Positions 1-20,483 of a stretch of DNA of 64,000 nucleotides are shown piece after piece. Source of the DNA: Candidatus Heimdallarchaeota archaeon (lineage in GTDB: Archaea > Asgardarchaeota > Heimdallarchaeia > Heimdallarchaeales > Heimdallarchaeaceae); assembly GCA_016839945.1 (NCBI GenBank), contig JAEOTE010000007.1, positions 115,799-179,798 of the forward strand, written 5' to 3'. The translations under genes and the position numbers were made by a program. Under the pieces are notes generated by a model. It saw only the letters and a program-made list of their open reading frames with translations, was not told where the DNA came from and did not search any database. Position 1 is the first letter of the stretch; the number at the start of each line of letters is the position of its first letter.

Positions 1-3000
1 TTTGTGCAAAAATATCCCAAAGTGTATGAATATTGTTCTTATGAAGTTCAGCTACACTTTGTGGATTGTCACTAATTATATCACTTAGATAATAAAATGG
101 TAAATCTAGATTTCGTTTTATCCTTGAAACCTGAATACTATTCAACTTTGAGGTTTTCACAATCAGTTCTTCGGAAACATTCAAATGTGCTATAGTTGTA
201 TATCCCGATTTGATTAACAGTTTTCTAATATTAGCATCAAATAATCCTATTTTCTTGACACTGTAACTCTTACTCTTCAATGTTTCATTGACTAACTGGC
301 TATTCATCTTATCTTGAAGAGACTTTACAATTGCTTGCTCTTGTTCAGTTAGACTTACGCTTATCGCTTTTCTTATATCTGGAATTGAAACAAAATCAAT
401 AACTTGGATTATACCTTCGTTATGGAATTTTTCCAAAAGTCTTGGTTGATTAATGAATATAAGCATTGGAGCTCTTAACTTCTCGATAATTTTCACAATT
501 TCAGAAGAATAGTCTTTAGGATCTTTGCTTTCAATATATTCAAGTAAAATTCCTATAGTTCGAATATCTTCTTTGCGTAGGAATGATAGTATTTCTTTGT
601 CCTTTATGAACGAACTAAGTCTCTTCTGTTCAGAAGACATCATCCTTTCCACTCTTGTAGAGGAAAGTTTAGGTAGAAGAGATGTACATGTTGTTTCATA
701 TTCTATTTCACTTAATGATTTACAGTAAATTAAGAAATCAAAAACAGTCTGAAGCTTCATCTTATTCATTAAGTCATAAATCTTCTTATTTTCTCTAACA
801 GGTGGAAGAGAAAAAAGATCAGTTTCTACCATGTTCTTTAATGAATCTGAGGTCTTCCAAACACTGCTTGTTTTTGATTTAGCTTGTTTATTGAATACAA
901 GCGCTTCTTCAACTGATAGGATAAAACCTTTCTTAAGGATGGAAATATTGCTTCCTGAAAGTAAATCTTTAGGTATGCTTGTTAGGCTTCCTTCCAACTC
1001 CTTCAAAGTAATTAATGAGATATTCCTTAGATTTCTTAGGAAAACTGGATCAGGGATTTGGCTCTTAATCTTATTATAATCCTCTAACAATAATTCGTCT
1101 ATACTCCTATAGGGAAGTTTTGAGATGATATCAACTTTCAACCTGTTTGGTTGAAGTAGGATTATTGTTCTTTTTAGATGATATGAGAGTTCATTATACT
1201 TCTTGCTTATCTTAGAATGAAGCTTTGAAATTGTTTTATTATAGAGTTCTTTTTCATGTTTTTGCAATAACAAAAGGTATTCTATTGAGGAATCTGACAT
1301 ATCAAGTTTTTGATCTTTTGATTCAAGATTTAATACTTGCATCAGAGTTATACCTTTATTGAAAATAGAATTAATGGCATTTTGAATATCTTCTCTTTGT
1401 TTTTTGGTTACACTTATCTTATTGAGATTCATTGATAAATATGCTAAATCTAGTAGATTGAGAGAATATTCAGTTTTTGATACTAAATCCTTAAGCACTA
1501 ACTTTTCAAATACTTTTATTTTATCAAGTAAATAATTAGGAATCTTATCTAATGATACTTCTTCATCAAAAAGATCGGAGTAATACTTGATACTTCTCTG
1601 ATTTAGAATCGCTATATCCTTTGCAGAGAATATCTTACTTTCTTTTATCACTGGATGGCTTCCAAAATTACTGCTTGTTAAAGAGTATCTTATTTTTTCA
1701 ACTTCTGCTTGTTTTAATAAGAGAATTGAAGCAAGTTCTTTGTTAGTTAATAGATAAAATTCTTCTAAATTCTTAACATAGTTCTGTATGTTTTTCCAAC
1801 TCTTAATTGTAACATCAGGAAGGAGTAAAAGCTCAATGGGTAGTTTTAGAATTCTCTTTATTTTGTTTGCCAGAGATTTGGAAAATGTGAACGTTTCTTT
1901 GTTTAAAGCAAAAATCAAATCATCCATTGTTGAATAATGTTTCTGAATTTCTTTCTTTGTTTCAGAATCGAAAATTTTCACTCTGCTTAACTGTACTTTC
2001 TTCTTAACATCTGTTTCAATTTTCTTGTAAGTTAGTGAAGAGGTAATTTCTAGGATTTTATCTTTCAATTTAGCAGGGGACAATATCATCCAAGAAGAGA
2101 TGGGTTTTATTATGAGATCTCCTATAGTGTAAATACTCTTATCTTCTAAAATCTGTAGATCTGCCTTTGTTAGAACAGCGAGTGAGGAAATGGGTTTGGA
2201 GAATGTTTGTTCAATTTTGAGACCCAAATCCGATAGTGAATCCTCTTTTTGATATAGTGTTGTTATTAAATCCAATATACTCTTAATTTTTGTTGTTTTT
2301 GTTTTCTTTGTGAACAATTCTTTAACATCGCTTTCCTCTATGTATTGATCTTTGGATATATAATTAGCTATTATACCTTCTTTTGATGCTAAGTAGTCTC
2401 CTAAGAATCCAACAATATTTGCTTTTTCTGTAGCATCACTTGTTTTCATTAAATCTCGAAAAGTTACTATTCCAGAATCTAAATAGTTGCTTTTTATTTC
2501 ATTTAGATTCTTTTGATTGATTTTTGGATAATAAAGGACAGAAGTGTTATAGACTTCTTCTGCTTTATTTTGAATTTGTTTAATCTTTTTCTCTGAAACT
2601 AACCAGTCGTAAATTGTGTTATTCATTAAATCCTCGAGATTGTAAATTCCTATAGATTTCAGATAATTTCTGTCTTGAGCTGATAGGAAGAAAATTTCTT
2701 TCAAGTTTTGTTCTGCAACGGAATCTATTCGTTGAACAATCGAATCTACTTTGAAATTCTTAATAGTATTTTGAATAGTTGTGACTTTTACTTTTGAAGT
2801 AGTTGCAATAACTTTAGGAGATAGATAGAAGATATCTGCAATAATATTAACACCTGCAGATTTCATTTTCTCTAAATCTTTAGGATCAAAATCTAGAAAG
2901 CGTAGATTCGCCAATAAATATGGAGTAATTTTCTTGAAAATGACTTCATCATCTTTGAATGTAGGTGATGTCAATATTGATTTGTATGAAGAATATCCTT

Positions 3001-6000
3001 TGTTTGATAAATCAACTTCTAATTCGGATAATGGTTCTTTAAATCCCTCTTCTTTTATACCTTTTATTAACGAGAGAGAGAGAATAATTTCATCTTGAAT
3101 ATTCTTTGGTAATTTATTAAGGAATATCAAATGCTCAATGATGGTTGTGAACCCTTTTTCATAACAATAATCTAGTGACTCTTTTGTTATTGAGGATAAA
3201 TAGCTGATATTATTGGATAATTGACTTCTGTAGTCATCAACTTCTTTTCCTTTTACTTTACTATTAGTTACGATATGACTAACAGGAACGAAGAAAAGAT
3301 GCTCAACTGTTGTTATACCTATTTGAAGGAGAGAAGTTGCTGTCTTCTTTGGTAATCCCAACATTTCAATTGAGATACCAAACTTATCAATTTTCTTCAG
3401 GTTTTTAACAAGATAATCTGGTTCTTCTTTCTGTTTTGTAATAAGCTTACTAAAACTTGCTGGCCAATTCTTCTGAGGTATAGCTAACAAATCGTTATAT
3501 GTTGTTATATTACTATTTAACAAGTCTTTAATTTCTGTATCTTTCAGCTTTAATGATTTTCCAATTAACGTTATTGGGGTTAATAAAATAGAGATGAGTT
3601 TTACAAGATTTTTCTTTTCCTCAATAGGTATTGGTATTAAATCAAGATTAAGCTCTGATGCTTGAACTAGAGATACACAACCATACTCGGAAAGAATGGT
3701 TTTGGTTTCCTTTGTTATTTCAGAGAATAGGCTTAAATCAAGACCTATTAATTTTACATTTTCTTCTAATGATTTAATATCAATAGTTGTTTTAATGGTC
3801 CTTATTTTTTCTTCTGCAACATTGATTAGTTTGGCTAAGAGTGGAGCTGGAATGAGAAGGAATTGGTAAAGGTTTCGAATGCCATTGTGTTTTAGTTTTT
3901 CTATTTGTTTGGAAGTTAGGTTACCTATATAGGATAATGGAATACTTTTTAGTGATAGAAGTAGAGGGCAAACTTCTGAGAGTAATTCTCTTTTTTCTAC
4001 AATCTTACTATCTAGTGATAAAAGCTCATCTAGATAGAGTATTTTTTCATCCTTTAATCTCTTAATAAGAGCTGAATCTGAAACAATCTTAATATCAGAG
4101 AGTTTGATCGCCCATTCTGGAGGGCTTATCTGTATAACTATACTATTAAGAACCTCTACTATTTTAGAATGCAGATCATGATTTTCCTCTTTCTCTGATA
4201 AACATAATAATCCTGATACAATGTTGTTACAATCGCTTTGAGACAAAATATTCAATTGTGCAATGTTAAGCTCAACGTTAGAAATGAGCCATGAAATTGG
4301 CTTAAACATATTTGAAGTGATTATTCTGATTAATGATTTCTCGATATCTCCAAAATCAAAAACTGGGTGAGGTATGAAATCTACTAATAATAGAGCACTT
4401 GATAATCCATATTTCATAAATTGTTCTTCTGCTTTATTTGGAAAGGAGAGAGCATGATCAATATAGTATGAAAATGTTTCTGACATTCTTGTACTCAAAT
4501 TAAATTCTCTTTGGAATATTCTTATTTGCTTTGCTACAGCTTTTGGTATACCAATTATTGTGTTGACATTTGTTGAGAGAAGTTCAATAACATGTTTAAT
4601 ACCATTATTCCATAGAACTCCTTTAGAAGAAATATCAAAACCTGGTAATGCAAGAACATTCAAACACAGAAAGCTAACTAATTGTTCAATAAATGCTATG
4701 CTTGAGATTTTTTCTATTCTTTCAGATTCTGATAGTTGTAGCAGTGCATCTGGGATAAAACCAAATATATCTTCTACAGCTTTTTTTGTTGGATCGAATT
4801 CAAGAGATTTAAGCAAGTTGATTATAGGTTCGTTAAGGGTTAATGTTCTACCTTTTGAAAGTGTGAAAGTGCCTTTCCTAGCTGAACTTATGGTTTTTGG
4901 AATTGAACCATTCAAGGCTCGTTTCAAATCCTTATCTGAACAATTAAAGAGATCAATCAACCTCAGAATTCCTTCACTAGTTAAGTTTAGTTTCTCCTCT
5001 GAAGATAACTCTGAAATTCGGTAAATTGAGATGTGACACGCGTTTAGAAAATCTCTCATATAGTCCCCAGAGACACTCAATGTAGGATATGCTTGATAAT
5101 TTGAACTATACAAATCTTGAACATGTATTTTTCCAGATTTAAGTAGAGAATTAATTTTTCCCTTTGATAAAACAAAGAAGTTTACTAACTCGACACCTTT
5201 TCGTTTAACTTCTTTCATCAAATTAGAAGGAGTGATTTTGTCCAAGTATGTTTGCACTTTTTTCTCTGACATGTTTAGTAAAAGAGAGATTGTAGAAACA
5301 TCCTCTGTAATAAAGGAGAGGATATCACCTACACCTGAATATATAAGCTTCATTACATGATGATTATCTAAACCAATAAAAGCTACAGAAGAGCGATATA
5401 GTTGCACTTCTCTAAAGATATCTAATCGAACTAGAGCAGGACGAGATTCTCTTATTTCTTCCATTCTTGATATAAAGTCTTGTACGGAGTTGATACCTAT
5501 ATCTAGTAGTTTTTCGAGATAATCTTCCTCAATTGAAGGACAAACAGTAAGAGGTATAGCAGAACTAATTCTTCTTTCTGATAACTCATCGAATGATATG
5601 AGATCTAGTGCATGAAACTCTTTGTATATTGGATTTTGCGTAATTGTAAATAACTCATCTCTATTCAATAAAGCAAGATCTATAACGGAATTTATTTCAT
5701 GATACTCCAGACGTTTAATTTCATCATAAGATAGAAAGCCTATGAATCGGATTGAGCCAGATAAGAGTTCTTTTGCTTTCTTATATACGTCAACTTGAAG
5801 TATTTCAGAGATACCTAACAAAGATGCTGAATAGAAGAGAGTTTCAATATCTGTAATCCCTAAATCTTTTAGCTCATCTAGTTTTTTCTCTGGTATTAGT
5901 TCTGATGGTCTTATTAAGTGAGATTGTGATAAACGGAAGGACACAATATCGGTGTAGGTTAGACCTTCTTTTATTTCTCTTATTTGTTTCTGGGAAAAAC

Positions 6001-9000
6001 CAGAGATTTCTGAGAGTTGCTTTTCTGGAAGTGAGAAGAAATCAATCAATGTATTAATTGAAGATTTGCTCAACTTGAGAGTAAGTTCTCTTGGAAGCCC
6101 CATGGAAGCTATTGGGATTGCTAATTCCATTATTAGTTTATTAAGAGAGTCAGTCTCCATTAAACTTGAGAAGAAAGGCGAGAGGGCAGAATGTTCCTCC
6201 AGATTTATTTCAAATACATCACCAATTATGACGTTTTTGTATTCTTCTCTACGAGCTTTTCTGATCTTAGTGAAGAAGGGTGTGATTCTAAGAGGTAACT
6301 CTAAAATTGATCGAATTAATGTTAGATTATAATGATCTGTAAGGTATTGTTTGTCTTTACCAGTTAAGTCTTTTATAACTTTTGGATCAGTAATAACATC
6401 TGATAACGTTTTATTTTCTACTTCTTGAATAACCCTGTTGAAATATGATGAATTATATACAGATGCAGGTAGTTTAGCGAAGTAATGGAAAGCTTGCATT
6501 ACTATTATTTTTGAAGAATATGTAGAAACAACTCTGTAAAGCACTGGGTCTTTAAGATCTATATCAGGAATGAAAAGTAATTGGTAAACATAATGGATAT
6601 CATTTTGTTCTAAAACCTCTAATGAAAATTCTGAAATCTCTGTAAAAATCTTCAAAGGTAAGGTGAGGTATTTCTTAACAGCTGATATCTTTATCCACAA
6701 TTCTGGATTAGAGAAATAATACTGTTCTTCTATAGTATAGAATATTTCTTGAATTGTTTGGAATCTTTCAAAGTGGAATATTGAATCTTTACTCAATAAT
6801 CTTTGTTCAAGTTTATCAAACAATTGAGTTTCAAAAGCAAAAATACCCTTTTGTTCATACATTGCTTGAATGCTTGAGGATGTCAGAGAAGTTATTATAC
6901 TTTCAGCATCCTTTGGAGAGATTTTTATGAGTTTGCTTAGTTTTTGAGATGATGCAAGAATAAACTCAGATATTGTTTTTATTCCATTTTCTCTTAGAAT
7001 TTCTGTTTGACTAAATGAGAGCGATGGTAAGAAATAAACAGGTAGTGAGAAGTAGCCAAATATATCTGAAAAGTCTAAAGCACTTTTTATTGTTTCAAAT
7101 CTTTCATCTGGTATTCCTGTTTTTTCCATCAGAACTTCAGGAGAGGATAACATAAAACCAAGTAAAGTCCTTATTTTTGCTTTTTCTAATAGTTCTATGA
7201 TTTCAGGATCTAGCATATCAGAAATATGATCCAAAGATAGATTCAAGATAGCTTTAAAGGATTCAATAACATCCCATGGTAAAATTTCCTCATTCCACTT
7301 ATCTTTTGAAGTTGAGAAGTATAAATCCTCAATTGTCATTATGTTATTTTCATCCAACACTCTGACAATTCTAGGTTCTAATATTCCTAATTCAGAAAGG
7401 TCAATTCCAGTATCACTTATTCTAACATTCCTTTGAAGAAGTATAGCTTCTTCATTATCTACTCCTAAGAAAGAAGCAATATCTTCAGATTTACTTACTA
7501 GTAAATCAATAATTTTAGTGATTCCATTATTTCTCAAAATGTTGAGTTGTTGGGTTGTCAAGGTTCTAGTTTGGACCTCTTCTATTTCTTGTGTTTCTTC
7601 GGATTCTTCAACTTGAACAGTTTTCTTGATGATTTTCTCCCATGTTACTAGTGTTAAAGGAGACCTCAGTAGCTTTCTGAACTTATCAATGACATTCCAG
7701 TTAACTACTGCTGAAGAAAAAGTGAGAGGGTGGGCTAAGTAAAAAATCTTATCCACTGTATCATAGCCAGAAAGTATTAGTGATACAATTTCGTGTGAAG
7801 AAAATCTCTCTGATTCTTCGTATTCAAATGATATTAGAGAAGTATATTTATTTCCTGATTTTTCAAAGAAATGAGTACCTTTTTTCTCAATTGCGAAAAC
7901 ATCTATTAATTGCTGGGTTTCTTGAGTAGACCTTACTAAAGTAGCTGCTAACTCATCAATAGTATATTCAAATAATTGATGAATAGCTGTTATCCCTCTG
8001 TTCCTTAATTTATCAAAATCTTCAAGAGTTAACTTACTTATTCTAGAAATTGGTAAACCTAGAGTTTGAACGAATTCATCATATTCACTAATTAGTAAGA
8101 TTTCCTTACTAAATTGATCAGTTTCTGAAAATGTTCTATTCTTGATATTATTGTGAAGCTCAATAACAAGTTTTCTTTCTTTAGCAGTGTTTAACTCAGA
8201 TTCAATAATTTCTGGAATAAGATCTAAAAATTGTCTTACTGTTACAATATTTCTTAATTTCAAACGAAGAAGAGCTTCTGTAAGCAGAGATAAATCCTTG
8301 AATTTGTCTGGATATAGTTGAGTAAGTTCGATTATTTCCATATTCGCTAATTGATTTAAATGTCGAATATTTTCCCAAAAACCTGTATTCAATGTTGGTT
8401 TTTCAGTAGGGTAAACACTGTATAGATCTTGGATTGTTAGGTTATGTTTTTCTATGAATTGAACTAATCTTGGATATTGGTTACTAAGTAAACTCAAACT
8501 CTTTCCAAATTCTGTTCTATTCTTTTTTACTTCTTCTTCACTTATTGATTGTTTTAAATCCTTTACCCTTTCTTCTGATATGTTTAATACATCAGATAAA
8601 TCAGAATTAGACCAGATTGAGAACCTGCCAATACAGTTTATTCCTATTTCTTGCAATAAATATGATTGCCTTCTTAATGAAGGAAATGCAAAAGATATAG
8701 GAGTTAATAAAAGATTTGCAGTTTCTAGATATGTTCTTTTTGCTTCTCCTGTTAGATTGTAAGCTTCAGGAGGATTGTAAAAAATTTCCTCAATAGATAC
8801 TATTCCTGCAGTTTTTAGTGTTTCTTGATGTTTTATCCATTTGAATATTGGAGTTCCAAGACTCTTTTTTATTCTCTCAACATCTTTTTTTCTCAAACCT
8901 AACTTTCTTAATTGAGGTGATGGAAATGCTAAGAATGCAGTAGTTGTAAAAATTTGAAGATTAACTAATTGTTGCTCAATATCCTTTGGTATTACTTTAA

Positions 9001-10095
9001 CGTGAGACAAATCTTTATCTTTCTTTGACTCTCGAATGTGAGATATTAATTTGTGTTTTGATTCCTTGAGTAGTAGATCACCTATCAATTTGTAATCTCT
9101 TTTCAAAATTGATGCTGTGGGTAAAGAGATTAGGTTAGTAAGAGTCTTTATACCTTTTTGAGATAGAACCTTTATGGCTTCTGTTTCCTCTTCCCTAAGT
9201 ATTTCATCAGAAATTAACTCAAATTTAGATAGTTCAATAGATTCTGAGGATTTGACTAGAGTATCTAGAAAGGTATTGTACAAATTCCTCTCTAGTTCCT
9301 TTATTACAACAAGATCATCTAGTTTAGCATTAATTAAATCCTCAATTGTTTTTATTTTTCTTCTATGAAAAGCGTTCTTAGTATAAGCATCTGTCCAATC
9401 AGGTTTCATCTTAGTTACATTGGTCTTAGAAAATGTAGGAAACTTATCACATAGTTGAGAAAAAATATTTTGCAGGTAATTAACTAAAACAGCTGTTACT
9501 TCTGTTTGATAGTTTACTGAATATGGTAATTTTGTTTGGTAAAGAAATTCTTCAATGGTTGTATCTTGAGATATCAAACCTTTAGAATTATCTTTTAGAT
9601 ACTCAAAAGTTGGAAATAGTGTATCTATTTTTATGTCATCAACTTTGGTGAGTGAAGCCAGAAGTTGTTTTCTTTTTTCTGATTTAGCTTTACTTGTTTT
9701 ATCCTTGGTTAGTAAGTACTGATGAAGGAGCTGTTCTTTTTTATTTTCGAAAAGTTTCTCTAGTAATCCAGTAACTGTTTGTAGTTTGTTAAAATCTGTA
9801 GCGAAATAATGGTAACTGTTTTGTATCCATCTTCGATATAAAGCCTCTTTTAATGTGATTATAGTTTTTTCATTTTGAGTAAATCTTCTTTCTATAGTTC
9901 TACTTACAAAGAGTTTAGGATCAAAACTAGGGCTCATTCCCTCTCTATCAAGTTCAGATATCGTTCTAAGTTTGATATTGTAGATATCTTGTTTAGTAAG
10001 TTCTAACAGTTTTGCTATATTATCAGATGGTGTTATGAGAAAATCAGAAATAGATTCAATATTGTTTGTTCGAAGAACTGATTGAATTCTTGATG
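1..10095 (-). repeat. Tandem degenerate helix-hairpin-helix-like protein repeats
   Basis: These repeats form the C-terminal part of the giant topoisomerase VI B gene. At least about twenty units can be read by eye with the pattern hydrophobic-x-x-x-GI-x-[TS]-[IV]-x-[DE]-[LF], followed by a second helix often containing L..L..IS. Examples are LRNNGITKIIDLL, LLQIGITTVEHLF and LKHNGIRNLYQFL. Spacing is irregular, about 50 to 150 residues, and nucleotide identity between units is low, so they are old repeats rather than recent tandem copies. The pattern resembles HhH and DUF4332 units, which bind DNA non-specifically or mediate protein contacts. The exact fold is inference. Confidence 0.7.
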
Positions 10096-11839
10096 GACAC
10101 CATACATTAGCACCAAATAATCTTCTTCCCAAAGGCATGAAGAGCTTAACTTTTTTTGTTGCACCATGAGCCAAGGCCGCAGCAATTCTGTCAGTTTCTA
10201 ACCTAAAATCAGTATAATTAACTGCTTCATCTTCTAAAATTTTTGTTAGATTATCTATGATTATTGGTGCAGATCTTACAAAGCGTGATAATCTTGCATG
10301 CTCTCTTCTTCTTCTTTTAGCTCTGCTTAAAAATGTCTTTAGTCTTCTCCCCAACTGCATTAATGCTAATCGTATCTCTTCCTCAATCTCAGGAACAATG
10401 GATATATATTCTTTACTTGTTTCTGGAAAAGGAATCTTAGTACTTACTACTGATACAGCTACAGCTAGAGGATCAGATTGCCTTGTTAACCCATATTCAT
10501 TCCATCTTATTGAAGAAACAGTATGAGAAATAACATCGTTCCCTGCTCCAAATATGAGTGGGATACGATTTGCGTACCTATAAATTATTTTATTATCTTG
10601 AACGGTAGCTCCCTTTACTTGCGAAGCTTCATTTACTCCCCCTCCATAACCTATTGCTACTTCTACAACAAAGGGATGACCAGAATAAGCTTTAGGAGCT
10701 CTTGTTACAGCTTCTACAAATTTAGGTTCCAGTTCTTTTTCTAAACCCCTCCTTAATCTATTCGATCCTAATGGTGATAAAGCAGTACCTTTTGGATCAT
10801 CAAACTGAAATATTCTATCTCTTTTTCTTTTAACATCTTTCGCTTCTTGGTAAGCTTTTACAAAACCTTCATGAACTATTCTTCTGATTTCGTGAGAGGT
10901 AATATCTTTTGGAGATTTGTTTGGATCAATCTCTAAAAGTTGGAAGAAACCTTCTGCTATTTCCTCATTTACTCCCATGAATTGTGTTGCTAGAAATTGC
11001 TTGAGTGTTTTGCTTTGACTTGCAGTTAATTCTGCCTTGAACTGAGTAATATCACACCCCCATGGATGAATTTTAACTGGTTGAGGAGGGGGAGGCATAT
11101 CATCTACAACACTAAGAAAGTCCAGATCTTCATATTCACCTTCTTTATCTGCAGGAACTTTGATTTTAAAACTGGAATAAGGGGTAATAATTGCTAATTG
11201 CTTAAAATATTCTTTTACGCTATTCTTAGCAAGCCTCCATGCTCCTGTAAAAGTGATTGATATTTCTGTTCCAGGTTCTTCAAGATAGTTTGGATCTCCT
11301 GGTAGGTACTCACGTTGTTCCATGATTACAGGTTCGTTCTTTTCAAGATTTATCATTAAATGAAGCTCATGGGTAATATCATCCATAAAGTATCTGCTTC
11401 GTATTTTTGCAGGTAAGTCAACAGATGACATAGAGTATAGCAAACACATTTTTGCTCCTAAACCAAAACGACCTCGTGTTTGAATTACTCCGTATTTTGT
11501 TCCAGTCAATACTCTCCCAAAAAGTTCAGCAATCTGGTGTCCAGGAACTCCTATCCCATTATCTTTACAGGTTAGTTGTAGAAAATCTAGATGCTTTTCT
11601 AATTTTCTGTATTGCGTAACATCAAGCAATTCATTTATTTCTCTGCTGGAAAGTTTTCTTAAGTCTAAATCAATAACAGGATTAATTCCTCTTTTTTCTG
11701 CTGCATCTAGTCCATTCTCAACTAACTCTCTGATACTTGTGAAAACAGCTCTCATTGAATTACCAAAACCAGCAATGGCTCTGTTTTCATTAAAGAAAGC
11801 AGCAGCTGACATTTTTTTTGTAACTGTATCTTCTGACAC
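1..11839 (-). CDS. Giant topoisomerase VI subunit B with tandem HhH-like repeats (3' end off window)
   Basis: The frame is open from a GTG at 11839 to the left edge, at least 3,946 codons, so the C terminus is missing. Residues 1 to about 570 are a DNA topoisomerase VI B subunit. They carry a GHKL ATPase with N box ELVENGLDA (38-46), G1 box DNGIGV (93-98) and G2 box GRFGLGAK (123-130), then a transducer domain with GTALSPLG, GHPFVVEV and the ATP-sensing lysine in STKIPF (near 467). Normal family members end at about 530-670 residues. Here over 3,300 further residues follow, mostly degenerate helical repeats with a core like L..NGI.TI.DLL. GTG is preferred over the ATG at 11812 because AAGGTG lies 8 bases upstream. 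No subunit A gene adjoins the start. A role as an ATP-driven DNA clamp or strand-passage partner is inference; the N-terminal family assignment is firm. Confidence 0.9.
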   Translation of the reverse strand, partial: MSEDTVTKKMSAAAFFNENRAIAGFGNSMRAVFTSIRELVENGLDAAEKRGINPVIDLDLRKLSSREINELLDVTQYRKLEKHLDFLQLTCKDNGIGVPGHQIAELFGRVLTGTKYGVIQTRGRFGLGAKMCLLYSMSSVDLPAKIRSRYFMDDITHELHLMINLEKNEPVIMEQREYLPGDPNYLEEPGTEISITFTGAWRLAKNSVKEYFKQLAIITPYSSFKIKVPADKEGEYEDLDFLSVVDDMPPPPQPVKIHPWGCDITQFKAELTASQSKTLKQFLATQFMGVNEEIAEGFFQLLEIDPNKSPKDITSHEIRRIVHEGFVKAYQEAKDVKRKRDRIFQFDDPKGTALSPLGSNRLRRGLEKELEPKFVEAVTRAPKAYSGHPFVVEVAIGYGGGVNEASQVKGATVQDNKIIYRYANRIPLIFGAGNDVISHTVSSIRWNEYGLTRQSDPLAVAVSVVSTKIPFPETSKEYISIVPEIEEEIRLALMQLGRRLKTFLSRAKRRRREHARLSRFVRSAPIIIDNLTKILEDEAVNYTDFRLETDRIAAALAHGATKKVKLFMPLGRRLFGANVWCPSRIQSVLRTNNIESISDFLITPSDNIAKLLELTKQDIYNIKLRTISELDREGMSPSFDPKLFVSRTIERRFTQNEKTIITLKEALYRRWIQNSYHYFATDFNKLQTVTGLLEKLFENKKEQLLHQYLLTKDKTSKAKSEKRKQLLASLTKVDDIKIDTLFPTFEYLKDNSKGLISQDTTIEEFLYQTKLPYSVNYQTEVTAVLVNYLQNIFSQLCDKFPTFSKTNVTKMKPDWTDAYTKNAFHRRKIKTIEDLINAKLDDLVVIKELERNLYNTFLDTLVKSSESIELSKFELISDEILREEETEAIKVLSQKGIKTLTNLISLPTASILKRDYKLIGDLLLKESKHKLISHIRESKKDKDLSHVKVIPKDIEQQLVNLQIFTTTAFLAFPSPQLRKLGLRKKDVERIKKSLGTPIFKWIKHQETLKTAGIVSIEEIFYNPPEAYNLTGEAKRTYLETANLLLTPISFAFPSLRRQSYLLQEIGINCIGRFSIWSNSDLSDVLNISEERVKDLKQSISEEEVKKNRTEFGKSLSLLSNQYPRLVQFIEKHNLTIQDLYSVYPTEKPTLNTGFWENIRHLNQLANMEIIELTQLYPDKFKDLSLLTEALLRLKLRNIVTVRQFLDLIPEIIESELNTAKERKLVIELHNNIKNRTFSETDQFSKEILLISEYDEFVQTLGLPISRISKLTLEDFDKLRNRGITAIHQLFEYTIDELAATLVRSTQETQQLIDVFAIEKKGTHFFEKSGNKYTSLISFEYEESERFSSHEIVSLILSGYDTVDKIFYLAHPLTFSSAVVNWNVIDKFRKLLRSPLTLVTWEKIIKKTVQVEESEETQEIEEVQTRTLTTQQLNILRNNGITKIIDLLVSKSEDIASFLGVDNEEAILLQRNVRISDTGIDLSELGILEPRIVRVLDENNIMTIEDLYFSTSKDKWNEEILPWDVIESFKAILNLSLDHISDMLDPEIIELLEKAKIRTLLGFMLSSPEVLMEKTGIPDERFETIKSALDFSDIFGYFSLPVYFLPSLSFSQTEILRENGIKTISEFILASSQKLSKLIKISPKDAESIITSLTSSSIQAMYEQKGIFAFETQLFDKLEQRLLSKDSIFHFERFQTIQEIFYTIEEQYYFSNPELWIKISAVKKYLTLPLKIFTEISEFSLEVLEQNDIHYVYQLLFIPDIDLKDPVLYRVVSTYSSKIIVMQAFHYFAKLPASVYNSSYFNRVIQEVENKTLSDVITDPKVIKDLTGKDKQYLTDHYNLTLIRSILELPLRITPFFTKIRKARREEYKNVIIGDVFEINLEEHSALSPFFSSLMETDSLNKLIMELAIPIASMGLPRELTLKLSKSSINTLIDFFSLPEKQLSEISGFSQKQIREIKEGLTYTDIVSFRLSQSHLIRPSELIPEKKLDELKDLGITDIETLFYSASLLGISEILQVDVYKKAKELLSGSIRFIGFLSYDEIKRLEYHEINSVIDLALLNRDELFTITQNPIYKEFHALDLISFDELSERRISSAIPLTVCPSIEEDYLEKLLDIGINSVQDFISRMEEIRESRPALVRLDIFREVQLYRSSVAFIGLDNHHVMKLIYSGVGDILSFITEDVSTISLLLNMSEKKVQTYLDKITPSNLMKEVKRKGVELVNFFVLSKGKINSLLKSGKIHVQDLYSSNYQAYPTLSVSGDYMRDFLNACHISIYRISELSSEEKLNLTSEGILRLIDLFNCSDKDLKRALNGSIPKTISSARKGTFTLSKGRTLTLNEPIINLLKSLEFDPTKKAVEDIFGFIPDALLQLSESERIEKISSIAFIEQLVSFLCLNVLALPGFDISSKGVLWNNGIKHVIELLSTNVNTIIGIPKAVAKQIRIFQREFNLSTRMSETFSYYIDHALSFPNKAEEQFMKYGLSSALLLVDFIPHPVFDFGDIEKSLIRIITSNMFKPISWLISNVELNIAQLNILSQSDCNNIVSGLLCLSEKEENHDLHSKIVEVLNSIVIQISPPEWAIKLSDIKIVSDSALIKRLKDEKILYLDELLSLDSKIVEKRELLSEVCPLLLSLKSIPLSYIGNLTSKQIEKLKHNGIRNLYQFLLIPAPLLAKLINVAEEKIRTIKTTIDIKSLEENVKLIGLDLSLFSEITKETKTILSEYGCVSLVQASELNLDLIPIPIEEKKNLVKLISILLTPITLIGKSLKLKDTEIKDLLNSNITTYNDLLAIPQKNWPASFSKLITKQKEEPDYLVKNLKKIDKFGISIEMLGLPKKTATSLLQIGITTVEHLFFVPVSHIVTNSKVKGKEVDDYRSQLSNNISYLSSITKESLDYCYEKGFTTIIEHLIFLNKLPKNIQDEIILSLSLIKGIKEEGFKEPLSELEVDLSNKGYSSYKSILTSPTFKDDEVIFKKITPYLLANLRFLDFDPKDLEKMKSAGVNIIADIFYLSPKVIATTSKVKVTTIQNTIKNFKVDSIVQRIDSVAEQNLKEIFFLSAQDRNYLKSIGIYNLEDLMNNTIYDWLVSEKKIKQIQNKAEEVYNTSVLYYPKINQKNLNEIKSNYLDSGIVTFRDLMKTSDATEKANIVGFLGDYLASKEGIIANYISKDQYIEESDVKELFTKKTKTTKIKSILDLITTLYQKEDSLSDLGLKIEQTFSKPISSLAVLTKADLQILEDKSIYTIGDLIIKPISSWMILSPAKLKDKILEITSSLTYKKIETDVKKKVQLSRVKIFDSETKKEIQKHYSTMDDLIFALNKETFTFSKSLANKIKRILKLPIELLLLPDVTIKSWKNIQNYVKNLEEFYLLTNKELASILLLKQAEVEKIRYSLTSSNFGSHPVIKESKIFSAKDIAILNQRSIKYYSDLFDEEVSLDKIPNYLLDKIKVFEKLVLKDLVSKTEYSLNLLDLAYLSMNLNKISVTKKQREDIQNAINSIFNKGITLMQVLNLESKDQKLDMSDSSIEYLLLLQKHEKELYNKTISKLHSKISKKYNELSYHLKRTIILLQPNRLKVDIISKLPYRSIDELLLEDYNKIKSQIPDPVFLRNLRNISLITLKELEGSLTSIPKDLLSGSNISILKKGFILSVEEALVFNKQAKSKTSSVWKTSDSLKNMVETDLFSLPPVRENKKIYDLMNKMKLQTVFDFLIYCKSLSEIEYETTCTSLLPKLSSTRVERMMSSEQKRLSSFIKDKEILSFLRKEDIRTIGILLEYIESKDPKDYSSEIVKIIEKLRAPMLIFINQPRLLEKFHNEGIIQVIDFVSIPDIRKAISVSLTEQEQAIVKSLQDKMNSQLVNETLKSKSYSVKKIGLFDANIRKLLIKSGYTTIAHLNVSEELIVKTSKLNSIQVSRIKRNLDLPFYYLSDIISDNPQSVAELHKNNIHTLWDIFAQ

Positions 11840-12003: not shown

Positions 12004-15000
12004 TTATTTCTTTTTCAATTTAAATTCTGGAGAAGTTCTATGAAGTACAACTGAAGTTATAGCAAAACCTATTGTAACAAAGAATAATGCACCAAAAGCT
12101 CCTATAGTTCTTGAAGTATCAACTTTATCTATTTCATCCAAGAATTGACCTTTTATGTCATCATAATATACTTCAGTAGCTATAGTTCTGTCATACTGCC
12201 AGAATAGACTACTCATGTCACCAGCAAAACCTGGATTTCCTTGATGCCATGTAGGATATTGATGAACTTTATCAACATGCATTGGATTACTGCCATATTT
12301 TGATGGATTTAGGAGTGAGAACATTTCTACGTGTTGTTCAGCTCTAGAGTTATAGTCTAATCTGTCCTTTCTATCAACAACAGTTCCAGTTTCTCCTTCT
12401 ACTAGCATTTCAAGCTTGTGTTGAGGATCAGTAGTTCTTCCAGGTAAGGAGTTTGTTAAATGCACATCAGAAGGTTTCAAACCCATATTATGCATTTGAT
12501 CCCAAATACCTGTGTAGATAAAGGTTGTATTAATAAAATTAGCTGCGGTCATCCAATAGGTTTGTTCATTGTATGTTTCTTTTACTGGAAAATCAGATTG
12601 ACAGAAGTAATAAAACACTACTTCATCATAGTACAAAGCGTAATCGTTTGCTAGATAAACAAAAGGTCTAAAGAAAGATTCAAACCATTGATTTCGTTCT
12701 CCTCCTTCTATTTGAGGATAACCTATGAATGAATCATATGTTGAATTGTAAACTGCTTCTTCTTGTAAATAAGGCCAATATTCAAATTGAACTTTCGAAT
12801 GGGCATACCAACATTCTAAGTATGTATGAAGCTCATCTTTATTTTCGAGAGTGAATGTTTCTGATACTGGTTCTATTTGGTAGTGGATTAAACCTTCAGA
12901 ATAATCTGCTAGGTAAAGTTCATTTCCATCTGCATAAACTCCATAAGCTTTTCCTAGGTGATCAGATCCATTAAGTCGATAAAGCTCCGATGGAGAGCTT
13001 TTTGATGACACATTAACTACTGTGAGCCCATCTTCTCCTTGTGTTAGGAAAACTTTGGTTGAATCAATGTAGAGATTATTGTAATATGATTCACTTGGAT
13101 CGAAACCATACTTCCCTTCTAGTGTAAGGTCAGCTCCAATACTGAATATAAGTAATCCTTCTACTTCATCAAGTACATAGAGATATGAACCTTCAACCTT
13201 TAAATCAAGGATATTATTAAGTTCAGTGAAGTTTGCTGAATCATAATGCTGATACAGTTCATCAGGTTCGAAAGTCAGGCTGTCTAATCGGACGATATCT
13301 ATTCCATCAGTCCCCAAACCAACATAAGCATTTGTTCCACTTACAGCAATAGATAATGCATCTCCTGAAGTTTCATTAAATGTAGAAAATGTGTTACTTA
13401 GCGTACCATCATCTGAAATCCCTACAGATGTAATACCATACTCCCCATTGGCAATATAAAGATAATAAGTAGGACTAGTGGTGCCAAATAAACCATAATC
13501 AATATCGTGCATATCAGCTCTTCCATAGTTAGTCCATTGTTCCAATTCTTCGATGAATACAGGTTCAGTTGCATTCAGGACTTCTAAACCTCGTTCTCCT
13601 TCAGTTGCATAAATAATAGAGTCAATAACTGTAAGTGAAGTTACTTCTCCTGAATAGTCTCCATATTGTCCTACTGCTAAGAAAAGTGGATGAGTTGTAT
13701 TTACAATTTTAATATCATTTTTACCTTCAATTACATATGCCATTCCGTCTTTAACAAAAACATCCATTGATTTTGATCTCTCAAAAGAAGGAATATTGCC
13801 AATTGCCAAGATTTTACCTACATCTTGAATATTATTTACTCCAGTTCTATGAGCATAATAAAGATCGTTGTTCCAATCGACATCTGTTGATTCAAGAGTT
13901 TGATTAACAATCAGTGGAAACTTTTTATTTCCTAGAAGGACATCTTCAACACCAGTTAACCATTCTAGTGTTGTTCTTCTACAAACGTATGAGATTTGAT
14001 TTTCAAATAACCAGTTGAGTGAAGGTTTTCCTAAGAGGAAATTCATATATTCAGCAAATGATTTTGCATGAGTTTTTTCAATTTCAGTGTCAATACCATA
14101 TATATCTGTTAATAATTGCTCTACATCAACTATTAAATCATCAACAGCTGTATAATCCAACCCTCTAACTAGATCTAAGAAGAATTTAGCAGATCCTTTA
14201 TCACCAGTTAAAATTGAATAATCTTTACCATTATATGTAGCATTGTATAAGATCCTGTAACTTGTTGCTCTGTCAAAATCTAAATCTGGAAAAGCAGGAC
14301 GAACACTAATCCAATTGTGTGGTATGTAAGTTCCTATATCTATTAAATTTTCTTCGTTTGCAAAGGTTTGGTTTAATACAATAGAAGCTAAATCTTGATC
14401 GCTATAACCAAAACTATCTTTAAAACCAAGTAGTTCTTGTTGCAGAAGATAAGAAGCAACATAAGCTTGGAAACCGTATTCGGTTCCATTTCCAAGATGT
14501 TCTAGATAATAAGGCCACATATAATTGAAATTTAAAACATATTCGTTTCCAGTTAATTCTGATGAATCTTGGTTTAAGATATATTGTTTTCTTTTAGTAA
14601 AAACAACATAATCATCTTGTCCCTCTACTGAACTAAATTCTTTAACGGTTTTGTTAATAATAACATCGAATGTTAAATCTCCTTGAACCGTTATGTATCC
14701 TATACGAGCATTATAGTCTACAAATGCTTCCCTATCACTCACATTATAAAAAGTAAAAGTAGCTGTATTATAATATCTTGATTCATTGTTTTGAACTCCC
14801 ATATACATCCAATCTGAAAAATCGTCGGATCCTGTATAGGGTACAATATCATCTTCACTAATTATTCCATAAGCAAAAATTCTTTCAGTAATCTCTGCCA
14901 TGCTGATTTTTGATCTTAAAGGTAGTAAGATACCCATTGCTATTGAAGATCCTAATGTTACAATAATAATCATTGCTCCTAATGCGGTTCTTAATCTAGC

Positions 15001-15006
15001 TTGCAT
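12004..15006 (-). CDS. CD36/LIMP-2-like two-helix surface protein with inserted LVIVD beta-propeller
   Basis: A 1,000-residue protein with one membrane helix at each end (about 8-30 and 966-992) and a large outside domain rich in N-glycosylation sequons. This topology matches class B scavenger receptors. Residues 83-160 (FTFYNVSD, then VQGDLTFDV, then YVVFTKRKQY and VLNFN) follow the order of the CD36/LIMP-2 beginning (F.F.NVT.P, V.E.GPYTYR, a hydrophobic strand, TLN). GKDYSILTGD (260-269) resembles its GDYVFLTGED segment, and VEGETGTVV (near 869) its D..P.TG.V segment. Residues about 410-730 are LVIVD-type propeller repeats (SMDVFVKDGMAYVIEG and similar). ATG start; TATA box about 50 bases upstream. 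The CD36 relation is by eye only; an unrelated propeller surface protein is the alternative. Confidence 0.6.
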   Translation of the reverse strand: MQARLRTALGAMIIIVTLGSSIAMGILLPLRSKISMAEITERIFAYGIISEDDIVPYTGSDDFSDWMYMGVQNNESRYYNTATFTFYNVSDREAFVDYNARIGYITVQGDLTFDVIINKTVKEFSSVEGQDDYVVFTKRKQYILNQDSSELTGNEYVLNFNYMWPYYLEHLGNGTEYGFQAYVASYLLQQELLGFKDSFGYSDQDLASIVLNQTFANEENLIDIGTYIPHNWISVRPAFPDLDFDRATSYRILYNATYNGKDYSILTGDKGSAKFFLDLVRGLDYTAVDDLIVDVEQLLTDIYGIDTEIEKTHAKSFAEYMNFLLGKPSLNWLFENQISYVCRRTTLEWLTGVEDVLLGNKKFPLIVNQTLESTDVDWNNDLYYAHRTGVNNIQDVGKILAIGNIPSFERSKSMDVFVKDGMAYVIEGKNDIKIVNTTHPLFLAVGQYGDYSGEVTSLTVIDSIIYATEGERGLEVLNATEPVFIEELEQWTNYGRADMHDIDYGLFGTTSPTYYLYIANGEYGITSVGISDDGTLSNTFSTFNETSGDALSIAVSGTNAYVGLGTDGIDIVRLDSLTFEPDELYQHYDSANFTELNNILDLKVEGSYLYVLDEVEGLLIFSIGADLTLEGKYGFDPSESYYNNLYIDSTKVFLTQGEDGLTVVNVSSKSSPSELYRLNGSDHLGKAYGVYADGNELYLADYSEGLIHYQIEPVSETFTLENKDELHTYLECWYAHSKVQFEYWPYLQEEAVYNSTYDSFIGYPQIEGGERNQWFESFFRPFVYLANDYALYYDEVVFYYFCQSDFPVKETYNEQTYWMTAANFINTTFIYTGIWDQMHNMGLKPSDVHLTNSLPGRTTDPQHKLEMLVEGETGTVVDRKDRLDYNSRAEQHVEMFSLLNPSKYGSNPMHVDKVHQYPTWHQGNPGFAGDMSSLFWQYDRTIATEVYYDDIKGQFLDEIDKVDTSRTIGAFGALFFVTIGFAITSVVLHRTSPEFKLKKK

Positions 15007-15138: not shown

Positions 15139-16395
15139 TTAATTTTCGCTATTTTCTGCTCTTACTTTAATAAGATAGTTAGGTTTTTCCCATATAACAT
15201 CCAAATCTGAAAGGTCTATGGTTCCCATACTCTCCTCATTTTCACCATAAATTTCTACAAAAATCTTCGAAAACAAATCATATTTACCCAAGATTTGATT
15301 TGGTAACATGTTACTTGTGAAAATTCCTCTAATAAGCGCACCATTTGTTCTCTTAGGAAGGATTGAGAACATTACATCAAGGTTCGAGTAATTTCTTCTA
15401 ATCTTCTGATATTCCTTTGTAATTAATCCTTGGTTACCTGGCTGGATTACTAGGAAACCTCTAGTGGATTGATCCTCTGTTATGAAGTTCCAAGCAAGTT
15501 TATTATTTTCTATTAACTTCGATAATACAGGATTATTGTCATAAACATCGACTGAATATATTAAGCAAGGTCCTTTTGTTTCGTTGAAGATTCTTAGAAA
15601 ATTACTTAAATCTATATGGTAGAACTCTGAGGGTGTTTGTGATGCAATAAGAAGATCTGAAATAATATGAGCCTCTCTATCATATAGTTTAGATTTCAAG
15701 ATATCTAAATCTACATTCGTATTGGCTTTTATTAAGCTATTTTCATCATACAAAATAAAGGGTACATCAATATCTGTTGATTCTTTCATTAACCTATGAA
15801 TGGTTGTAAGAACATTGAATTCTTGGATTATCTCTATCTCATGTGGTGGAATATGAAAAGACAAGATAGGCTGAAGGTTTTTTTCTTTTAGGTATTCAAC
15901 TATTTTAGTTATTAACCCAATAGTAAAAGCATCGTTTTCTACAAATATGAAAATAAGAGAGGTATCTTTAAATTGTTTGTTTAATTCTTGTGTTACTTTT
16001 TCTTTATTCTCCTCAAACCATGCAATTCCTCTTGAAAAAGTATTTTCCAACAATTTCAATGTAGGAGTCTCAAGAAAAGGAATGTTAGCACCTAAATCTT
16101 GTGATAGGTTTGAACGAGAAATCAAAAGTGAGGACGGAAACTTATCTTTAATTTGATTATTCATCGCTTTAAGAATCTCAAACCCATAATTTTCAGTAAA
16201 TATTAAACCAGAGGAGATTTTATTAATCTCAGCTTCTACAAAAAGTGTGTCTGATGATTCGCTTCCAGATAATTGTTTATCTGTCGTTTTGCTTTGTTTT
16301 ATTATTGATTCAAAATTAAAACTATAAAGTGCATTATATTTTTCAGGAGGATCTCCCTCTATTTTTTTTCCTTTTTTTCTGAATAGCGCTTTCAT
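15139..16395 (-). CDS. Degenerate tubulin/FtsZ-superfamily protein lacking GTP-binding motifs
   Basis: A 418-residue soluble protein that can be aligned by eye along its length with the FtsZ-like GTPase at 19344-20483. The strand LIFIFVENDAF (147-157) sits where that protein has LIVGSGGGTGS, so the glycine-rich T4 loop is lost. The T1 region (near 66-72) also lacks GxGNAG. The following elements correspond: VPFILYDENSL to CPVILFDNEKL, then a helix, then CLIYSVDV to GVIVSLD, then TRGFLVIQPGNQ to LGYLTISTPTTY, and LIRGIFTSNM to TIRGILTGIH. The first 60 residues are basic and low in complexity. It probably cannot bind GTP and may act as a partner or cap of the active paralogue (inference). ATG start. 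Confidence 0.6.
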   Translation of the reverse strand: MKALFRKKGKKIEGDPPEKYNALYSFNFESIIKQSKTTDKQLSGSESSDTLFVEAEINKISSGLIFTENYGFEILKAMNNQIKDKFPSSLLISRSNLSQDLGANIPFLETPTLKLLENTFSRGIAWFEENKEKVTQELNKQFKDTSLIFIFVENDAFTIGLITKIVEYLKEKNLQPILSFHIPPHEIEIIQEFNVLTTIHRLMKESTDIDVPFILYDENSLIKANTNVDLDILKSKLYDREAHIISDLLIASQTPSEFYHIDLSNFLRIFNETKGPCLIYSVDVYDNNPVLSKLIENNKLAWNFITEDQSTRGFLVIQPGNQGLITKEYQKIRRNYSNLDVMFSILPKRTNGALIRGIFTSNMLPNQILGKYDLFSKIFVEIYGENEESMGTIDLSDLDVIWEKPNYLIKVRAENSEN

Positions 16396-19343: not shown

Positions 19344-20483
19344 ATGTCTTGGTTAAAACGCAAACTTTTCAAGAAGAAGATTTCTGTAGCTATTATTGGA
19401 GTAGGTAATGCTGGATGTAGAATAGGAGAACAAATTATTCATCACCTTAGGGAGAGCAAAATCACAGTAAAATCATTAGCTATAAATCATGAAGATAATT
19501 TTCATCCAAAAATCAATAATTATTCAGATGAATTCTGGTTTGGATCAAAGAAGAATCTATCATCAAACTATGAGTTAGAAGATGCAATGAGTGATTTGAA
19601 GAAAAAGGAAATAGATTTACGAGACAAACTTGAGAAAGTTGTTTTTTACAAACGAGATGATAGAAGAAGTGATGATGATTTAGCTTTGCATCTTATTGTA
19701 GGAAGTGGAGGAGGTACTGGTAGTGCAGGATCTATGATTGCTAGTAATCTAATTACTGATATAGTAGGTGATCCCCCCACTGTAATCTTTGTAGTTCCTG
19801 AAAAAGATGAACCATCACTAGTTCAATATAACGCTGCAAAAGCTCTCTTCCACTTAGGATTCGACTTAAAAGGTCCTTATTGCCCAGTAATTCTCTTTGA
19901 TAATGAAAAACTATTGAATTTTTATTCAGATGAACAGATTGAGCAAGCTCTTGAAAAGAGTAATGAAATACTAGCAGAGACTTTAACAACTACAATTCTT
20001 GCTGCTTTACAAGAAAGCACTCATGAAGAGTATAATGCTAATCTCAAAGATTTCTTTAGCTCCTTCACAAGAGAAGCTAGAGGATTAGGAGTGATTGTTT
20101 CTCTTGACAAAGAATTTGAAACTTTAGAAATAGCTCAAAATATCAGATTTTCTGATCTTTTCTTCGGTGAATTAGATGAAAATTCAAGCTTGACAGCTGA
20201 TGTAACAAGGGCAAAACTTGGATATTTAACAATTTCAACACCAACAACTTATCAATCAACGTTCGAAACAAGAAAAATAGTAAAGAAATTTGAAAGAGGA
20301 GATATTAAAGCAGCTCTCAACTCGATAGATGAACCATTTCTTACAATTAGAGGAATCTTAACAGGTATTCATCCGGATTATGTTGATCGGTTCTGGGAAA
20401 TACTGGAAAAGGGAAGAGATAGCAGAAAAAATATTCTAGAAATTGAATCAAAAATAAGAGAATCCTATATAAGTTTAACATAG
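19344..20483 (+). CDS. FtsZ/tubulin-superfamily GTPase of a divergent FtsZ-like type
   Basis: A 379-residue cytoplasmic protein with the tubulin/FtsZ GTP-binding fold. It has the T1 loop GVGNAG (19-24), the signature T4 loop GSGGGTGS (120-127), a strand VIFVVPEKDE, and CPVILFDNEKL with a following SNE.. helix. The T7 region reads NLKDFF (233-238) where FtsZ has N-x-D-F-A-D, so the second catalytic acid is uncertain and hydrolysis may be slow. It lacks the usual FtsZ C-terminal tail. Divergent FtsZ-like families of this sort, encoded beside membrane proteins, have been proposed to remodel membranes rather than to form the division ring. The neighbours here fit that: a membrane protein immediately upstream and a zinc-ribbon membrane protein downstream. 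A filament-forming role is inference. Confidence 0.85.
   Translation: MSWLKRKLFKKKISVAIIGVGNAGCRIGEQIIHHLRESKITVKSLAINHEDNFHPKINNYSDEFWFGSKKNLSSNYELEDAMSDLKKKEIDLRDKLEKVVFYKRDDRRSDDDLALHLIVGSGGGTGSAGSMIASNLITDIVGDPPTVIFVVPEKDEPSLVQYNAAKALFHLGFDLKGPYCPVILFDNEKLLNFYSDEQIEQALEKSNEILAETLTTTILAALQESTHEEYNANLKDFFSSFTREARGLGVIVSLDKEFETLEIAQNIRFSDLFFGELDENSSLTADVTRAKLGYLTISTPTTYQSTFETRKIVKKFERGDIKAALNSIDEPFLTIRGILTGIHPDYVDRFWEILEKGRDSRKNILEIESKIRESYISLT

Follow-up and report, generated by a model that had tools for sequence, protein, structure and literature searches.

A probable divergent CD36/LIMP-2-type protein with an inserted LVIVD β-propeller in a family of Heimdallarchaeota

Introduction

Does a Heimdallarchaeota gene encode a relative of the CD36 scavenger receptors, and if so, what is a β-propeller doing in the middle of it? 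These questions are raised by a locus in a 64,000-nucleotide stretch of DNA from a Candidatus Heimdallarchaeota archaeon (the window), for which the original prediction, made from the sequence alone, had proposed a CD36/LIMP-2-type receptor with an LVIVD propeller inserted. Both lipids and protein ligands bind to the apex of CD36 proteins, and hydrophobic ligands are thought to reach the membrane through a tunnel inside the protein (PMC5712522, PMC4912623). A survey of class B scavenger receptors (SR-B) from 2023 traced CD36 back as far as the last eukaryotic common ancestor, leaving archaea unmentioned (PMC10715195). Here we support the proposal of an archaeal relative with a propeller in its middle at the level of sequence, both for homology and for architecture. 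The window protein is probably, with about three chances in four, a divergent member of the CD36/LIMP-2 family of class B scavenger receptors that is helix-anchored at both ends, carries a propeller after the equivalent of strand β9 and has an enlarged apex.

Results

The gene is an open reading frame with an ATG start encoding 1000 amino acids, and its features are collected in Table 1. Only two parts of the protein, residues about 5-32 and about 967-990, exceeded 1.6 on the Kyte-Doolittle scale in 19-residue windows, bearing out the hydrophobic helix that had been predicted at each end. The ectodomain is hence flanked by two membrane helices, as in the operational definition of SR-B proteins (PMC10715195), and there are no further helices. 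Since Arg4 and Arg6 lie ahead of the first helix and a Lys-rich tail follows the second, the positive-inside rule suggests that both short tails are probably cytosolic, leaving about 930 residues outside. This outside domain had also been described as glycosylated. The protein contains 15 N-glycosylation sequons compared to 7.8 expected from its composition, and all orthologues (21/21) show an excess; since the ratio in other genes of the window ranges from 0 to 3.5-fold, the excess lends modest weight to a glycosylated domain on the outside and does not prove glycosylation.

Table 1. Features of the CD36-like gene, with positions in the window and residues of the encoded protein (residue 1 = position 15006).
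Feature	Window position	Strand	Residues	Evidence or remark
Whole gene, CD36-type receptor with inserted propeller (probable)	12004..15006	-	1-1000	Open reading frame and full-length orthologues
N-terminal membrane helix	14917..14985	-	8-30, within about 5-32	Hydropathy
CD36 N-terminal barrel segment	14512..14910	-	33-165	FTFYNV at 84-89; orthologues match Pfam CD36 model positions of about 56-134; hhalign
Enlarged apex region	13999..14511	-	166-336	Aligned to Asgard CD36; flanked by CD36 segments
RTxEW(L/V) segment, counterparts of LIMP-2 strands β8-β9	13798..13998	-	337-403	hhalign P 3.4e-6
Inserted seven-bladed LVIVD β-propeller	12868..13782	-	about 409-713	Pfam LVIVD and blade alignment
CD36 C-terminal barrel segment	12133..12858	-	717-958	hhalign; Pfam CD36 top family; genome profile search
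CD36 hallmark block VEGETGTVVDRKDRLDYN	12349..12402	-	869-886	
C-terminal membrane helix	12037..12111	-	966-990	Hydropathy; Lys-rich tail after

A Pfam scan with the window copy as a single sequence identified LVIVD repeats only, at 25.1 bits compared to the curated cut-off of 20.2, and LVIVD was also matched in 16 of 18 full-length orthologues. Blade alignment resolved seven units, the last of which is short, as would fit a propeller closing on itself. The presence of the inserted propeller was thus confirmed, while its bounds needed correction: it occupies about 305 residues at about 409-713 rather than the 400-730 originally given. LVIVD-like propeller proteins are numerous in G000 and related genomes.

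Searched on its own, the window copy had no CD36 match in Pfam and no match in the PDB. PDB searches with the family profiles gave chance matches only, none of them CD36, and nothing relevant was found in a scan of NCBIfam. Among the full-length orthologues, 13 of 18 matched Pfam CD36 (PF01130), with a best E of 1.9e-6; one of them (L021), which shares 51% identity with the window protein, scored above the curated cut-off (27.1 versus 26.5 bits) and the other 12 were sub-threshold. Membership of the window copy in PF01130 would accordingly be by orthology, at about 50% identity over the full length. The Pfam matches are colinear in the orthologues, with protein residues 86-171 corresponding to model positions 56-134 and residues 857-908 to positions 346-398, and when the N and C halves were scanned separately CD36 was the family matched by most members in either half (7/21 and 8/20, respectively).

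Profile-profile comparison, which had been proposed beforehand as a check, gave CD36 rather than unrelated surface proteins as the best matches. With the propeller removed, hhalign probabilities were 92-96%; with the membrane helices removed as well, P was 5.9e-7 in local and 1e-9 in global mode at a score of 63.4, whereas the reversed profile scored 20.8 and none of 60 column shuffles exceeded 26.7. The C-terminal segment by itself gave P 6.7e-7 including the C-terminal membrane helix and P 7.6e-5 without it. In single-sequence comparisons, all full Asgard CD36 proteins (10/10) scored 26.7-48.9 and true decoys 25.0 or less, the four entries of the decoy set that exceeded 25.0 (L003, L041, L052, and L061) being CD36 fragments and not true decoys. 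Furthermore, when the C-half profile was run over 228 genomes of the phylum, the sole match outside the window's family was a CD36 protein (E 3.6e-6). The reverse search, in which a profile of Asgard CD36 was run against the 23 family genomes, gave seven matches at E <= 1, five of which, including the two best, were the propeller-bearing gene. The N, middle and C segments align colinearly with CD36 on both sides of the apex, in agreement with the predicted order of CD36-like segments. On these sequence comparisons, the resemblance to CD36 is far above chance and homology of the propeller-bearing proteins to CD36 can be regarded as established.

Two of the individual motifs that had been singled out, F.F.NV (residues 84-89) and E..TG.V (870-876), align with their CD36 counterparts. 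The latter lies within the hallmark block, for which the consensus is VEPxTGSVVERxDRVQYN in the propeller-bearing proteins compared to VEPITGAVMNAxERIQVN in Asgard CD36. The assignment of DY..LTG at 262-268 is probably wrong, as profile alignment puts the counterpart of DYVFLTG at 381-389 (DLYYAHRTG); the segment at 262-268 is invariant or nearly so among the propeller-bearing proteins. GPY itself is lost, the window protein reading VQGDLTFD at 107-114. GPY, which is a conserved motif outside the published operational SR-B definition, occurs in LIMP-2 and in most CD36 proteins of Asgard archaea, whereas VQGxLxFD replaces it in the propeller-bearing proteins. Of their cysteines only Cys342 is invariant, indicating that a pattern of disulfides as in mammalian CD36 is not conserved.

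The site of the propeller insertion could be located from its upstream flank. Residues 325-408, just before the propeller, align with a segment of LIMP-2 and Asgard CD36 (hhalign P 3.4e-6), pairing RRTTLEWLTGVEDVLL with THTVDELLWGYKDEIL and DLYYAHRTGVNNIQDVGKIL with DYVFLTGEDSYLNFTKIV. With the LIMP-2 register fixed by K205 and D272 (PMC5712522), this segment spans strands β8 (212-216) and β9 (226-231), and the propeller is therefore inserted at the start of the β9-β10 loop (232-265 in LIMP-2 numbering). The stretch directly after the propeller gave no significant alignment alone (P 0.73), leaving the point at which CD36 resumes uncertain, and the match is firm again towards the VEPxTGxV block. 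In LIMP-2, the β9-β10 loop is reported to flip away and thereby make room for cholesterol in the lower tunnel (PMC5712522). Long expansions were always found in the apex in the survey of 279 eukaryotic SR-B proteins (PMC10715195). The propeller-bearing proteins have two enlargements, the propeller in the barrel and an apex of about 170 residues, compared to about 40 between the flanking motifs in LIMP-2.

Orthologues with 41-84% identity over full or partial length were found by protein search in the window's genus and family, the nearest named record being from Candidatus Heimdallarchaeota archaeon YT1_048 (L037). With a profile built from the region C-terminal to the propeller, an orthologue was detected in 22 of the 23 family genomes sampled, demonstrating that the gene is a stable feature of this family and no assembly accident. 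Profiles of both halves revealed no further gene of this kind outside the family among the 228 phylum genomes, and the viral contigs searched contained no relatives of either the propeller-bearing family or canonical Asgard CD36.

In 18 of 23 orthologous loci, the start of a topoisomerase VI-B-like gene adjoins the CD36-like gene, a conserved neighbour that gives no clue to the function of the latter. In the window, a giant open reading frame on the minus strand (2-11839, at least 3946 aa) runs past the window edge and encodes topoisomerase VI subunit B at its N terminus (transducer domain E 1.9e-54), with long stretches of helix-hairpin-helix-type matches thereafter. Between the CD36-like gene and a pyruvate kinase gene, a 418-aa protein without a Pfam match is encoded on the minus strand (15139-16395), the middle of which looks tubulin-type by eye only, and a Tubulin/FtsZ-family protein is encoded on the plus strand at 19344-20483 (35 bits compared to a Pfam cut-off of 33).

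The genome searches also revealed canonical CD36 in Asgard archaea. Pfam CD36 was above cut-off in 12 of the 228 phylum genomes, spread patchily over 8 genera; all 23 genomes of the window's own family lacked such a match. The canonical proteins (L057-L070) comprise full proteins of 607-1165 aa with terminal helices, most with an enlarged apex, and contain Pfam CD36 pieces of 50-238 bits; one of them matched human LIMP-2 with E 3.5e-51 and CD36 with E 3.8e-47. Their genes are located on contigs of up to 504 kb in genomes up to 99% complete, and several have neighbouring genes common to different genomes, arguing against eukaryotic contamination. We found no treatment of CD36 in Asgard archaea in the open-access literature, where these canonical genes are apparently unreported. 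The CD36 family may thus predate eukaryotes, or there may have been exchange of it between eukaryotes and Asgard archaea.

Discussion

From the analysis as a whole, we infer that the window protein would act at the surface as a receptor, either for a hydrophobic ligand or for a partner carrying lipid, and that its propeller would serve in docking or gating. In this reading the CD36 part would still fold into an asymmetric barrel enclosing a hydrophobic tunnel, an extracellular partner such as a lipid, a membrane vesicle or a protein may be captured by the apex and/or the propeller, and the hydrophobic ligand would travel down the tunnel to the membrane. Taken together, these steps are possible at slightly under even chances. 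Since the propeller is in the β9-β10 loop, which is displaced in LIMP-2 on cholesterol entry, it could couple partner binding to the opening of the tunnel. A fold prediction by AlphaFold2 with L037 as the sole homologue reached a mean pLDDT of 26 for the full protein and 29 for the propeller, values too low to yield a usable fold.

The main rival of the receptor reading is a CD36-derived scaffold without transport, in which the tunnel is lost and the barrel presents propeller and apex as a surface adhesin or docking receptor. We consider this conceivable but doubtful. Loss of hallmarks such as GPY, the unconserved disulfides and a divergence so strong that the window copy lacks a Pfam CD36 match are all in line with a scaffold, as is the history of the inserted module, the first description of LVIVD repeats having come from surface proteins of archaea and bacteria (PMC2447325) and further LVIVD-like genes being abundant in these genomes. 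In contrast, mean column identity is 73% in the N and 63% in the C segment of the CD36 part while the propeller has few invariant positions, which suggests that the CD36 part is under a constraint of its own and still doing essential work.

That the gene encodes an unrelated archaeal surface protein, with CD36-like motifs arisen by chance or convergence, is very improbable; the missing single-sequence match of the window copy and the sub-threshold scores of most orthologues point that way, but both halves match CD36 independently and colinearly, the searches are reciprocal, the shuffled and decoy controls score lower, and L021 exceeds the curated cut-off. A chimeric assembly or eukaryotic contamination of metagenome-assembled genomes has a negligible probability although most genomes involved are fragmented drafts, since the same fused open reading frame is intact in about 20 genomes including the single-contig genome G030, which refutes an artefact for the window gene, the topoisomerase VI-B-like start lies alongside in most loci, and the canonical Asgard genes have the large contigs, near-complete genomes and common neighbours described above.

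The presence of CD36 in 12 Asgard genomes and of a propeller version in almost every sampled genome of one Heimdallarchaeota family makes it testable whether eukaryotes inherited this lipid receptor from their archaeal ancestor or whether the gene moved sideways. Through the site it occupies, the propeller also amounts to a natural experiment on the mobile loop of the tunnel. The wider scenario, in which Asgard archaea already had a CD36 family before eukaryotes arose and a propeller placed on the tunnel-guarding loop turned it, in one lineage, into a ligand-gated lipid receptor, is speculative and in our judgement unlikely.

Compared to known systems, the propeller-bearing proteins resemble CD36, SR-BI and LIMP-2 (PF01130) in having two terminal membrane helices and a large outside domain, and share with them the segment order FxNV, RTxEWL, DY...TG...KI before β9, and VEPxTGxV..R.Q.N. 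They differ from these receptors in the propeller after the β9 equivalent and the longer apex, in not keeping GPY and the disulfide pattern, and in a divergence that places them at the edge of Pfam detection. Their nearest detectable relatives, the CD36 proteins of other Asgard families, likewise combine a CD36 core with an enlarged apex and terminal helices, but have no propeller and are clearly over the Pfam cut-off. Lineage-specific expansion of the outside domain is also known from apex-expanded eukaryotic SR-B proteins of up to 2,294 aa (PMC10715195). However, the eukaryotic expansions are in the apex between motifs M4 and M6, whereas the larger insertion described here is in the β9-β10 loop of the barrel, a site not seen in that survey, and consists of a known β-propeller repeat family. 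Finally, the LVIVD-repeat surface proteins share with the window protein repeats of about 42 residues, which form seven blades in the latter; unlike them, the window protein nests a single propeller, without an anchor of its own, inside another domain.
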